64,000 nt of DNA from Gemmatimonadales bacterium (GTDB lineage: Bacteria > Gemmatimonadota > Gemmatimonadetes > Gemmatimonadales > GWC2-71-9). Location of the stretch: contig DASUJH010000034.1 in NCBI GenBank assembly GCA_036279355.1, positions 62,001 through 126,000 of the forward strand, given 5' to 3'. Position 1 is the stretch's first letter; each line of letters begins with the position of its first letter. The notes under the pieces were generated by a model. The model ran no database searches. It saw only the letters and a list, made by a program, of their open reading frames with translations, and was not told the origin of the DNA. Positions 27,040-34,370 of the stretch are shown one piece after another. The position numbers and the translations under genes are program-made.

Positions 27040-27221
27040 CGTGGTGGCCTCCGCCGAAATTCGCCTCTCGGCATGCCGCCCGCCGGCCGCCGCCGAGCCC
27101 AGCTTGGGGCGGCGAGAGCCGGCGCGCGGGGGCGCGGGTCACCATCCCGCCGGCGCGGGCGGCCTAGCTTGGGGGGGGCGGACGGCAAGGAGCGATGCGA
27201 GACCAAAACGGAGGACCGTCC

Positions 27222-27689
27222 ATGGACCACGACTACACCCAGCCCATGCCCTACGATCTGAATAGCTGGCGCTACGCCCGCTCACATCCCGATCCGCTGG
27301 GTGACCACTTCGGCCCGGTCGAATGGGGCGGCGGGGGAGGCCGGGCGGGCAGCACCCGGATGGACCCGCACTGGATCGATATGCGCGGCGCGCTGGCCGG
27401 AGCAGACTATTCGTCAGCCCGCATGCTCGACCACCCCACCTACGCCGGCCGGGGCCCGAAGAACCACCGCCGCCCCGACGGGCGAATCGCCGAGGACGTC
27501 TGCGAGGCGCTTACCGTACACCTCGGGGTGGACGCGAGCGAAATCGAAGTGAAAGTGAACGACGGCGAGGTGTCGCTTACCGGGAGCGTGGAGGACCGCC
27601 GCATGCGCCGCGTGGCCGCCGAGGTCGCGGAATCGGTGGCCGGCGTGCGGGACGTGCACACGCGGGTGCGTGTGCGCGAACGGCGCTAG
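27222..27689 (+). CDS. BON domain protein
   Basis: A protein of 155 residues. The first half is low-complexity and Gly/Asp/His-rich (EWGGGGGRAGSTR); the C-terminal 65 residues form a BON domain: RIAEDVCEALTVHLGVDASE, IEVKVNDGEVSLTGSV and VRDVHTRVRVRE. BON domains occur in periplasmic or stress-related proteins and bind phospholipid or act as scaffolds. No signal peptide is visible. ATG at 27222 is preferred because GGAGG lies 7 nt upstream; the earlier ATG at 27195 has AAGGAG only 2 nt away. Converges on the ECF sigma gene with stops overlapping. Confidence 0.82.
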   Translation: MDHDYTQPMPYDLNSWRYARSHPDPLGDHFGPVEWGGGGGRAGSTRMDPHWIDMRGALAGADYSSARMLDHPTYAGRGPKNHRRPDGRIAEDVCEALTVHLGVDASEIEVKVNDGEVSLTGSVEDRRMRRVAAEVAESVAGVRDVHTRVRVRERR

Positions 27690-28276
27690 TTACATGTCTC
27701 TGCGCCGGCCCCGGCCTCGCCCCGACTGCAGTTGCAGTCGAGGCAGCCGTGGGTTAGGCAGGTGCCGCAACTCCGCGCCACCTGCCGGCGGAGCGCCTCG
27801 CGGGCCCGGTGCAGCCGAACCCCCGCATTCCCCGGCGTGATACCGATCTCCGCGGCAAAGTCGCGGACGCTCCTTCCGTCGAGGTCCACCCGGCGAATGG
27901 CCGCGCCGTACTCCGGCTTGATCGTGCCGACGAGGGCCGCGACACAAGCACAGATCACGGTCTCGAGCTCCTCATCGGGACCCGCAACCGCCTCGTCCGC
28001 CTCGGACGCAAATCGGTCGTGGGCCCGCGCCCGCGAATCCTGCCTGCGGAAATGGTCGGTGATGGCGTTCCTGAGCACGCGATAGAACCACGCGACTGCG
28101 GATTCGGAATTCCGCAGCCCCGCCGTGCCGTCGAGGCTACGGACGAACGCCTCCTGCAGGATGTCCTCCGCCACGTCGCGCGACCCCACGCGCCGCTCGA
28201 CGAACGCGAGAAACCGGGCGTGGCTGTCGAGAAGCACCCGGAGAGCTCCGGGTGCCTCGACCGACTCGTCCATCAT
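27686..28276 (-). CDS. ECF sigma factor with Cys-rich C-terminal tail
   Basis: A protein of 196 residues. Region 2: RFLAFVERRVGSRDVAEDIL, then AVAWFYRVLRNAITDHFRR. Region 4: LDGRSVRDFAAEIGITPGNA, then VRLHRAREALRRQ. After region 4 comes a tail CGTCLTHGCLDCNC ending ETCN, seven cysteines in about 25 residues, likely to bind metal or sense redox state; no anti-sigma gene is adjacent. Start ATG 28276 (ATGATG) follows the Cys-rich peptide stop by 13 bp; longer in-frame starts run through that gene. The tail may replace an anti-sigma factor as the sensor. Confidence 0.9.
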   Translation of the reverse strand: MMDESVEAPGALRVLLDSHARFLAFVERRVGSRDVAEDILQEAFVRSLDGTAGLRNSESAVAWFYRVLRNAITDHFRRQDSRARAHDRFASEADEAVAGPDEELETVICACVAALVGTIKPEYGAAIRRVDLDGRSVRDFAAEIGITPGNAGVRLHRAREALRRQVARSCGTCLTHGCLDCNCSRGEAGAGAETCN

Positions 28277-28289
28277 TTCCGGATCCACC

Positions 28290-28403
28290 CTACTTGCACC
28301 CGCAGCCGCAGGTGCACTCGGCGGCCGTGCAGGGGCACTCGGTGGTGCCGGCACAGCTGCAGCGGCACTGGCAGGCCTGGGAGGGCTTCGTGGAATCGCT
28401 CAT
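28290..28403 (-). CDS. 37-residue Cys-rich (metallothionein-like) peptide
   Basis: An unlisted small gene of 37 codons with a textbook Shine-Dalgarno (AAAGGAG, 8 nt before ATG). It reads MSDSTKPSQACQCRCSCAG and continues with CPC, CTC and CGCGC motifs to a terminal Lys: ten cysteines, six CxC pairs and no hydrophobic core. This composition is that of a metal-thiolate peptide. It sits 13 bp before the Cys-tailed sigma factor, so the two are co-transcribed. Sequence identity with a known metallothionein was not recognised; function as metal buffer or sensor partner is inferred. Confidence 0.75.
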   Translation of the reverse strand: MSDSTKPSQACQCRCSCAGTTECPCTAAECTCGCGCK

Positions 28404-28492
28404 CGGGATCGCTCCTTTGGGTTTGCGGTCAGACTGCCTGAGGCATCGTCGCCTTCAAACCTGCTGACGCACGCCCCGCCGAAGCATTACAC

Positions 28493-29464
28493 CTACTTCG
28501 TCGCCTTGGCCGCAACCTTCGCCGACGCCTTGGCCGCCTTCGCTGCCGGCTGCGCCTCGAGCGTCTTCGCCTCCGGCGCCAGCCGGTCGGCGGTATACGA
28601 GTCGATCCGGTACACCGTCTGGCCGGTATCCGCCTTGGCCCAGAACCCGGCCTTGGTGGAATCGATGAGCAGGGTGAGGATCGGCGACCCGTCCTTGCGC
28701 TCGAGCCGAGTACGCCGGTCCGGCCGCCTGAAGTCGAGCGAATCGGCCTGCGCGGGCGAGGCGAACGCCGTCGCGTCCACCGCGCGATACTCCGACAGCA
28801 GATCGGCCACCTGGGCGGTATCGACCGCGCCGCCCGGCTTGAGCCTCCACCCCTCCTCCCCGCGTGCGAGCGTGTAATGATGCCCTGAGCGGGTCACGTC
28901 GATCCGGGCCACGCTGTCGGACGGCACGGCCGCGATCTTGTGGTCGCGCCAGCTGTCGGTCTGGCGGGTCACGGCGTCCACCAGGCGGCCGTGCAGGAGA
29001 TAAGTGGGGTCCTCCCCCACACGGCGCACGTATCCGCCGCCGGACTGCGCCGACCGATTGCCCGCGATGAAATCCACCAGCATCTTGCCGCCGCCGCGCA
29101 TCTCGACGTGGGTCCCGCCCGCGCTGTCCACCCCGAGCGCCGCGTGCGATGCGGGCTCCTCGGCAATCAGCTCGCTCGCCGGCGCGGTGTCGGCCAGCGC
29201 CGCGAAGAGATCGGCCACCGCCCGCGGTGCCGCGCGGTGCCCGTTCACGGTCCAGCGGGCCGAATCCTGCCTGGCGAGCACCGCGGTGTCGGCGCCGTGC
29301 GTGAGCACCACCGTGTCCACCGATGCGCGCGCCACCGCCGGCAACCGGAACGCGTCCTCGCCCGCCGGCGACCCACGGTGCCGCCGCGCGAACGCCGCCG
29401 CGCCCCAGAGCGCCAGCAGCACCACGAGCGCGATGCCCATCCTGAGCAGTTGCCTCGCGCTCAT
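28493..29464 (-). CDS. DUF4340 domain protein
   Basis: A protein of 323 residues with an N-terminal membrane anchor (MGIALVVLLALWGAAAFARR) and two DUF4340 repeats outside (for example SWRDHKIAAVPSDSVARIDV, then YTLARGEEGWRLKPGGAVD). The C-terminus is Ala/Lys-rich (KAAKASAKVAAKATK). DUF4340 genes are often the last member of Gld-type ABC operons. Its ATG overlaps the GldFG gene by 4 bp (ATGA), consistent with a single membrane complex; its activity is unknown. Confidence 0.88.
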   Translation of the reverse strand: MSARQLLRMGIALVVLLALWGAAAFARRHRGSPAGEDAFRLPAVARASVDTVVLTHGADTAVLARQDSARWTVNGHRAAPRAVADLFAALADTAPASELIAEEPASHAALGVDSAGGTHVEMRGGGKMLVDFIAGNRSAQSGGGYVRRVGEDPTYLLHGRLVDAVTRQTDSWRDHKIAAVPSDSVARIDVTRSGHHYTLARGEEGWRLKPGGAVDTAQVADLLSEYRAVDATAFASPAQADSLDFRRPDRRTRLERKDGSPILTLLIDSTKAGFWAKADTGQTVYRIDSYTADRLAPEAKTLEAQPAAKAAKASAKVAAKATK

Positions 29465-33014: not shown

Positions 33015-33051
33015 CGCTTCGATCGCGTGGTGCCGCGCCGTTGGTCCTTGC

Positions 33052-33079
33052 TTGACATATCAACACTTCTTGTTATGTT
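33052..33079 (+). promoter_or_regulatory. arsR promoter with overlapping ArsR operator
   Basis: TTGACA (33052-33057), 16-bp spacer and TATGTT (33074-33079), which ends 7 nt before the arsR ATG. An imperfect dyad ATATCAAC..TTGTTAT (33057-33076) covers the spacer, and the same core recurs before arsM. The dyad is the likely ArsR binding site. Confidence 0.7.
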
Positions 33080-33086
33080 GCCGGAC

Positions 33087-33410
33087 ATGAGCACCGAAAC
33101 CTCCGTCCGCGCAACCGCCGCCCTCTTCCACGCCCTCTCCGACGAGACCCGGCTCGCCATCGTCGAGCGACTGCGGCGCGGCGAGCGCTGCGTGTGCGAG
33201 CTGACCGACCTCCTCGACGCCGCCCAGTCCCGGCTCAGCTTCCATCTCAAGGTGCTGCGCGAGGCCGGCGTGATCGACTGCCGGCGCGAAGGCCGCTGGG
33301 CGTATTACTGGCTCCGGCCCGAGGCGTTCGATGCGCTGGAGGAGGCGTCCAAGGTGCTTCGCCCCACACCCGCGGCCGTCGCGCGGCAGCGGGAGGCGTG
33401 CTGCGGCTAA
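33087..33410 (+). CDS. arsR: ArsR family arsenic-responsive repressor
   Basis: A winged-helix repressor of 107 residues. FHALSDETRLAIVERLRRGE is the family opening, and CVCEL (Cys35, Cys37) matches the ArsR inducer site ELCVCDL on helix alpha-3. Recognition helix: AAQSRLSFHLKVLREAGVID. The C-terminus ends ACCG, adding two possible As(III) ligands. ATG at 33087 is preferred: it begins the conserved protein and lies 7 nt after the -10, so the mRNA is probably leaderless. As(III) binding should release the operator and derepress arsR-arsM-arsC. Confidence 0.95.
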   Translation: MSTETSVRATAALFHALSDETRLAIVERLRRGERCVCELTDLLDAAQSRLSFHLKVLREAGVIDCRREGRWAYYWLRPEAFDALEEASKVLRPTPAAVARQREACCG

Positions 33411-33432
33411 GCCGATTCGAGTTTTGCTCGAC

Positions 33433-33452
33433 ATATCAACGAATCTTGTTTT
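33433..33452 (+). promoter_or_regulatory. Second ArsR-type operator, upstream of arsM
   Basis: GACATATCAAC (33430-33440), three variable bases and TCTTGTT repeat the core of the arsR operator exactly. It lies between arsR and arsM, 12 bp before the arsM ATG, so arsM may have its own ArsR-controlled promoter or a roadblock site. Confidence 0.65.
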
Positions 33453-33464
33453 CCGGAGGAATGC

Positions 33465-34370
33465 ATGACGACGAACAGCGCAAACCCGGCGGGCGACAGG
33501 GCCGAGCCGGCGACGATCAGGGACACCGTCCGCCAGCGCTACGGCGAAGCCGCGAGGCGGGTCCTCGCGGGCGAAGGCGATGCCGATTGCGGGCCCGCCG
33601 ACTCCTGCTGCGGCACGGCCAACTCCTGCTGCGGAGCGGCGCCCGCCACCGGTGGCGGCCATGACCCCATCACGGCCAACCTTTATGGCCCCGACCAGAC
33701 CGCCTGCCTTCCCGCGGAGGCCGTGCTGGCTTCGCTCGGCTGCGGAAATCCGACCGCGCTGGCCGAGCTGCGCGAAGGCGACACGGTGCTCGACCTGGGC
33801 TCGGGCGGCGGCATCGACGTGCTGCTCTCCGCCCGGCGCGTGGGTCCGAGCGGCAAGGCGTACGGCCTCGACATGACCGACGAGATGCTCGCGCTGGCAC
33901 GGGCCAACGCCGCAAAGGCCGGCGCCACCAACGTCGAGTTCCTCGAGGGCGAGATCGAGCACATCCCGCTGCCCGACGCGTCGGTCGACGTCATCATCTC
34001 CAACTGCGTCATCAATCTCTCGGCCGACAAGCGCCGGGTGCTGGCCGAAGCGTTCCGGGTGCTCAAGCCGGGCGGCCGGCTCGCGGTATCGGACGTGGTC
34101 GTGCGCGGCGAGCTGCCGGCGCCGGTGCGGCGGAGCATGGAGCTGTGGGTCGGCTGCGTGGCGGGCGCGCTCGAGGAAGGCGAGTTCAAGGCGCTCCTTG
34201 CCGAGACGGGATTCACCGGCGCCGAGATCGAGCCCACCAGGATCTATCAGATGGAAGACGCGCGCGCGTTTCTGGCCGGGACCGATGCCGACCTCGAGGT
34301 ACTGGCCCGTGAGGTAACGGGGCGGGTAATGGGTGCGTTCGTGCGGGCGACCAAGCCGGGCGCGGCGTGA
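33465..34370 (+). CDS. arsM: Arsenite S-adenosylmethionine methyltransferase
   Basis: A protein of 301 residues that methylates As(III) with SAM to mono-, di- and trimethylated, partly volatile products. SAM motif [11 protein letters not shown] (about 108-118). The three arsenic-ligand cysteines expected for ArsM are present: Cys93 (LGCGNP), Cys181 (ISNCVINL) and Cys231 (WVGCVAGAL). An N-terminal segment adds two CCG knuckles (SCCG, residues 47-57). CCGGAGG lies 5 nt before the ATG. Second gene of the ars operon; no ArsB or Acr3 pump follows. Confidence 0.96.

Follow-up and report, generated by a model that had tools for sequence, protein, structure and literature searches.

A gene for a short Cys-rich peptide and a gene for a CorE-like ECF sigma factor lie in tandem behind a promoter-like motif in the window, the whole 64-kb stretch of DNA that was analysed. 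The two probably constitute a self-contained metal-response operon, in which a sigma factor activated by metal at its Cys tail would make both itself and a metallothionein that chelates the metal. The pairing of peptide and sigma factor recurs beside relatives of this sigma factor in three bacterial phyla and appears to be previously undescribed, no report of it or of a metallothionein partner of a CorE-like sigma factor having been found in the open-access literature.

The window belongs to a genome assembly of 60 contigs, 3.25 Mb in total. The operon occupies 27686-28491 on the minus strand, where the promoter-like motif is followed by a 37-codon ORF and, 13 bases past its stop codon, by the ECF sigma gene, which begins with ATGATG (Table 1). 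This is the arrangement described in the original prediction, which had pointed to a 37-residue peptide with ten Cys and a strong Shine-Dalgarno sequence (AAAGGAG, ahead of the ATG), ending 13 bp before the start of an ECF sigma factor with a Cys-rich tail and no adjoining anti-sigma gene. All of these points were borne out, while the count of six CxC motifs is revised to seven overlapping ones. Both flanks are unrelated to the operon and contain no anti-sigma gene: a BON-domain gene (27195-27689, plus strand) lies tail-to-tail with the sigma gene, with a four-base overlap at 27686-27689, and a DUF4340/ABC-transporter group lies upstream, ending at 28493. A scan for a sigma-70 promoter and an intrinsic terminator found none. 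A strong hairpin (GAGGCACCCGGAGCTCTCCGGGTGCTTCTC) is present at 28229-28258 on the minus strand, inside the first sigma codons, and could affect translation of the sigma factor or be a chance product of GC-rich coding DNA. At 5 kb from the operon (33027-34370, plus strand), an ArsR-type regulator is encoded ahead of an ArsM-like methyltransferase that is Cys-rich in an N-terminal stretch.

Table 1. Features of the predicted metal-response operon, with positions in the window
Feature	Position	Strand	Basis
Predicted promoter of the CorE-like sigma factor	28466..28491	-	Motif and spacing common to relatives
Metallothionein-like peptide, 37 aa, 10 Cys, 7 CxC	28290..28403	-	ORF, Shine-Dalgarno sequence, counterparts beside sigma genes
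CorE-like ECF sigma factor, 196 aa, sigma2 + sigma4 + C-terminal Cys-rich domain	27686..28276	-	Pfam, invariant Cys
Linker CxC, Cys109-Ala-Cys111, between sigma2 and sigma4	27944..27952	-	Sequence; CorE/ECF44 signature
C-terminal Cys-rich domain, C-x2-C-x4-C-x2-C-x-C-x11-C, Cys170 to Cys195	27692..27769	-	CorE spacing

By sequence, the sigma factor is CorE-like, a member of the already known class formerly called ECF44 and now ECF238, which goes beyond the original prediction in placing the tail within a known sensor class. The Pfam domains Sigma70_r2 (E 1.6e-11) and Sigma70_r4_2 (E 8.6e-07) are followed by a C-terminus of the form CGTCLTHGCLDCNC-x11-C, in which the spacing of the six Cys is identical to that of Cys 181, 184, 189, 192, 194, and 206 in the tail of Myxococcus xanthus CorE (PMC3107203). 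Equivalents of CorE's four invariant Cys (181, 184, 192, 194) are all present at equal spacing, together with those of Cys206 and of Cys189, the residue most important for copper activation (PMC3107203). The sigma2-sigma4 linker also contains the CxC that serves as a signature of CorE/ECF44 (PMC8999054). A search of GTDB genomes yielded 80 relatives, mostly from Gemmatimonadota, Myxococcota, Acidobacteriota, and Planctomycetota. Seven Cys are invariant among the 67 relatives that were aligned, C109 and C111 in the linker and C170, C173, C178, C181, and C183 in the tail; of 81 tails, 79 match the CorE pattern and one (L094) that of CorE2. The distribution of the gene is patchy, with a CorE-like sigma factor in 11 of the 395 genomes of the phylum. 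In the AlphaFold2 model of the window sigma factor, confidence is limited to sigma2 and sigma4. Most of the tail has a pLDDT below 50 and the pTM of the model is 0.46, too low for a metal site to be located. In an Eisenbacteria MAG (L025:1105-3234), a single open frame of 709 aa encodes a multicopper oxidase as well as a Cys-tailed CorE-like sigma factor, and a TGTAAG...CGTC motif lies between the sigma and oxidase parts; the frame is either a true sensor-enzyme fusion or the product of a lost stop or a sequencing error.

The peptide, MSDSTKPSQACQCRCSCAGTTECPCTAAECTCGCGCK, carries its Cys at positions 11, 13, 15, 17, 23, 25, 30, 32, 34, and 36. With 27% Cys, zero aromatic residues, and no CXXC, it has the composition of a metallothionein, that is, of a small protein with about 20-30% Cys in CxC or CxxC arrays and few aromatics, and it is predicted to bind metal. 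The 25 copies of the peptide (22-53 aa, 6-15 Cys each) have Cys density in common, the remaining residues varying greatly. Searches of Pfam, NCBIfam, and PDB sequences returned no match for the window peptide and nothing significant for the other copies, the weak matches being to single copies (E 0.019, the best in Pfam, and 0.041); the best PDB match among the peptides was a Cd-metallothionein at E = 0.046, below significance. Since no family match is significant, the peptide is here called metallothionein-like rather than a member of a described family. It is most likely an effector, a metallothionein under the sigma factor's own promoter.

The association of the peptide with the sigma gene is close. 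A strict scan of both strands of the 80 loci (738 kb) accepted ORFs that start with ATG, span 18-80 codons, and contain six or more Cys, three or more CxC, and a Cys content of 16% or higher. It gave 20 matches, all of them within 500 bp of the sigma gene, for which the probability under random placement is about 2e-16. Applied to the 64-kb window, the same scan found the peptide in question and nothing else. Slightly looser criteria add the peptides of L028 and L092, giving 22 of the 80 loci, and two more Gemmatimonadota genomes beyond these (L125 and L128) carry it too. The pair is also present in the cultured relatives Granulicella sp. L60 and Edaphobacter lichenicola M8US30. Among relatives with the pair, Gemmatimonadales MAGs are the closest, and the search for the pair in other genomes that the original prediction had proposed found the small frame in all of the nearest relatives (L017, L018, L019, L029, L125, and L128), so that among these the loss of the frame that was to count against a functional pairing did not occur. 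The position of the peptide relative to the sigma gene varies between lineages. It lies upstream on the same strand in the window and 12 related loci, belonging to Gemmatimonadota and some Acidobacteriota, while in 12 other loci it is divergent (Acidobacteriota), convergent (Myxococcota/Deltaproteobacteria and one Acidobacteriota), or downstream (two Acidobacteriota). On the sigma tree, presence of the peptide changes at least eight times. Most copies are preceded by a strong Shine-Dalgarno sequence, and the existence of divergent, convergent, and downstream copies, most with a promoter motif of their own, argues that the peptide is not an obligate cis co-sensor.

The promoter motif of the window consists of a -35 element, TGTAATG (28491-28485), a 15-nt spacer, and a -10 element, CGTC (28469-28466), and lies 62 bp upstream of the peptide; transcription is predicted to begin near 28460. 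The 80 related loci contain 54 sites of the form TGTAAKG-N15-CGTC versus 0 for a control with reversed order, and the spacing shows a sharp peak at 15 nt. Of the 22 peptide ORFs, 17 have a TGTAA...CGTC motif of the same length in the 200 bp before them; at L052 it lies just inside an over-long called ORF, upstream of the probable true start, and the peptides of L053, L055, L064, and L085 have no recognisable motif within 200 bp. Elsewhere among the relatives, where the genes behind the motif and the ATPases were identified by motif-directed ORFs and tblastn, the genes that follow the motif include P1B-type ATPases, which have HMA, YHS, or HMBD domains, and one cupredoxin; this ties the motif to copper. 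Single loci have it ahead of a SnoaL-like protein (L089:5635-6042) and a MarC-family membrane protein (L056:4301-4939), which are possible further targets of the sigma factor or chance occurrences. In the 3.25-Mb genome, the sole exact copy of the motif is that ahead of the peptide, sites with one mismatch show no excess (22 versus 34 for the control), and neither of the two copper ATPases has a motif nearby, so that the predicted regulon in this genome is the operon itself. In eight related genomes, motif sites outside the sigma locus are likewise near control level.

In the proposed mechanism, the sigma factor would need no anti-sigma factor to stay inactive as long as no metal occupies its C-terminal Cys-rich domain, and would become active when a thiophilic metal is bound by this domain together with the linker CxC. 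This metal-dependent activation is predicted from CorE, for which activation by metal bound to the tail with the linker CxC is established in the literature. The metal-loaded sigma factor would guide RNA polymerase to TGTAATG-N15-CGTC upstream of its own operon, and transcription from there would yield more sigma factor and the 37-residue metallothionein, a self-amplifying switch with the metallothionein as its main output. The metallothionein would chelate excess cytoplasmic metal and so protect the cell, and by lowering free metal it is proposed to reset the switch. In relatives, the output of the same sigma factor and promoter type would be a metallothionein in some cases and copper export genes, among them the P1B-ATPase, in others. 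The metal sensed is most likely Cu(II), with Zn or Cd possible; because neither copper ATPase of this genome has the motif, the assignment to copper draws on the tail spacing and on the relatives. Of the metal- or redox-sensing module originally envisaged, the metal-sensing sigma factor that works without an anti-sigma factor and is tied to a Cys peptide is retained, and the sensing of an oxidant has become less likely by analogy, as M. xanthus CorE gave no response to H2O2 or diamide (PMC3107203). Whether the peptide might also be part of the switch itself is a more doubtful matter: translated together with the sigma factor and competing for metal with its tail or passing metal on to it, in an anti-sigma-like manner, it would set threshold and shut-off, and with the export pump exchanged for the metallothionein a family of sequestration-only copper switches would then operate in Gemmatimonadota, Acidobacteriota, and Myxococcota, a proposal that is rather unlikely.

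Other explanations of the pair differ in how much of this evidence they can accommodate. A module sensing Zn/Cd in the manner of CorE2, or thiol oxidation, with the peptide as a Zn/Cd metallothionein or a redox buffer, would agree with the predominance of Zn/Cd proteins among the metallothioneins of cyanobacteria and Pseudomonas, with the lack of any copper gene adjoining the window operon, and with copper ATPases that have no motif. Cd and Zn also elicit a weak response from CorE (PMC3107203). Such a module is nonetheless unlikely, as the tail has CorE-type spacing and lacks the CC doublet responsible for the Cd/Zn specificity of CorE2, the sister loci have copper ATPases and a cupredoxin as outputs and sit by multicopper oxidases, and the indifference of CorE to oxidants speaks against the redox variant. 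The possibility that the Cys-rich frame is spurious, a product of GC-rich DNA that happens to lie next to a sigma gene unrelated to it, deserves practically no credence; the missing family match and the great variation of the non-Cys residues would suit it, but the position is conserved, a Shine-Dalgarno sequence and a promoter motif are present, and a chance origin is made very unlikely by the fact that every strict match adjoins the sigma gene, with zero away from it in 738 kb and none elsewhere in the window.

A purely cis-acting role fits poorly with the variety of gene orders. As a copper-sensing leader ORF, the peptide would bind metal as a nascent chain and thereby control translation or Rho-dependent termination before the sigma gene, as CruR does in Bordetella. 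Such ORFs are known (PMC9426467), the upstream, same-strand copies with the 13-nt gap of the window have the required placement, and the mRNA is somewhat more structured than its shuffles (z = -2.06). In the 12 loci with a divergent, convergent, or downstream peptide, however, a leader role for the sigma gene is impossible, which opposes a purely cis-acting function although the upstream copies are exempt from this argument; ten Cys in CxC arrays follow a storage pattern unlike the CXXC and arrest motif of CruR, and the strong Shine-Dalgarno sequences of most copies also count against a leader, making this explanation very unlikely.

If the peptide is an effector metallothionein, it may stand in for copper export as the output of the sigma factor. 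A P1B-ATPase is found within the examined stretch at 0 of 22 peptide loci versus 38 of the 58 others (Fisher P 2e-8, kinship ignored), and at 0/14 versus 26/38 when only loci with full flanks are counted (P 1e-5). The apparent exclusion is partly explained by the relatedness of the loci. Supported branches provide four independent contrasts, and in none of these do peptide and ATPase go the same way; after phylogenetic correction the exclusion is not significant, a sign test with four pairs being unable to reach significance. Replacement of the export ATPase by a metallothionein is therefore offered as a lead.

Few sigma factors sense a metal directly, CorE-like ones among them, and the outputs so far known for the latter are efflux pumps and oxidases. 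Should the proposed operon function as described, a group of bacterial metallothioneins missed by profile libraries would have been identified through recurrent pairing under one promoter, the cognate promoter next to a CorE-like gene would serve as a marker for finding more of them, and synthetic biology would gain a minimal two-gene metal sensor.

Among known systems, the CruR-type leader ORF is an obligate first cistron with CXXC and a RAPP arrest motif; the peptide was considered for this class and rejected, as it has neither CXXC nor RAPP and occurs in divergent, convergent, and downstream copies. The bacterial metallothioneins SmtA, BmtA, and PmtA, and MymT under RicR, are like the peptides in being short, Cys-dense, intracellular, and tied to a metal regulator, whereas the sequences of the peptides do not significantly match those of any metallothionein family. 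The regulators of known bacterial metallothioneins belong to other families, and we know of none that is a metal-activated sigma factor. CorE of M. xanthus (ECF44/ECF238) resembles the window sigma factor in its sigma2-sigma4 architecture, linker CxC, six-Cys tail spacing, and lack of an anti-sigma gene, and relatives of the window sigma factor keep similar gene company (P1B-ATPase, multicopper oxidase). The reported targets of CorE, cuoB, copB, MXAN_3427, and perhaps copA, include no metallothionein, and its autoregulation is only partial (PMC3107203). In contrast, the sole predicted target in this genome is the sigma factor's own operon, headed by the metallothionein-like peptide. CorE2 of M. 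xanthus follows the same sensor principle but owes its Cd/Zn specificity to a CC doublet in the tail, C173-C174 (PMC9023288), which is absent from the window sigma factor. OrbS of Burkholderia cenocepacia likewise senses metal directly through a C-terminal Cys cluster and without an anti-sigma factor; it differs in being inhibited, by iron, and in its Cys spacing and regulon.
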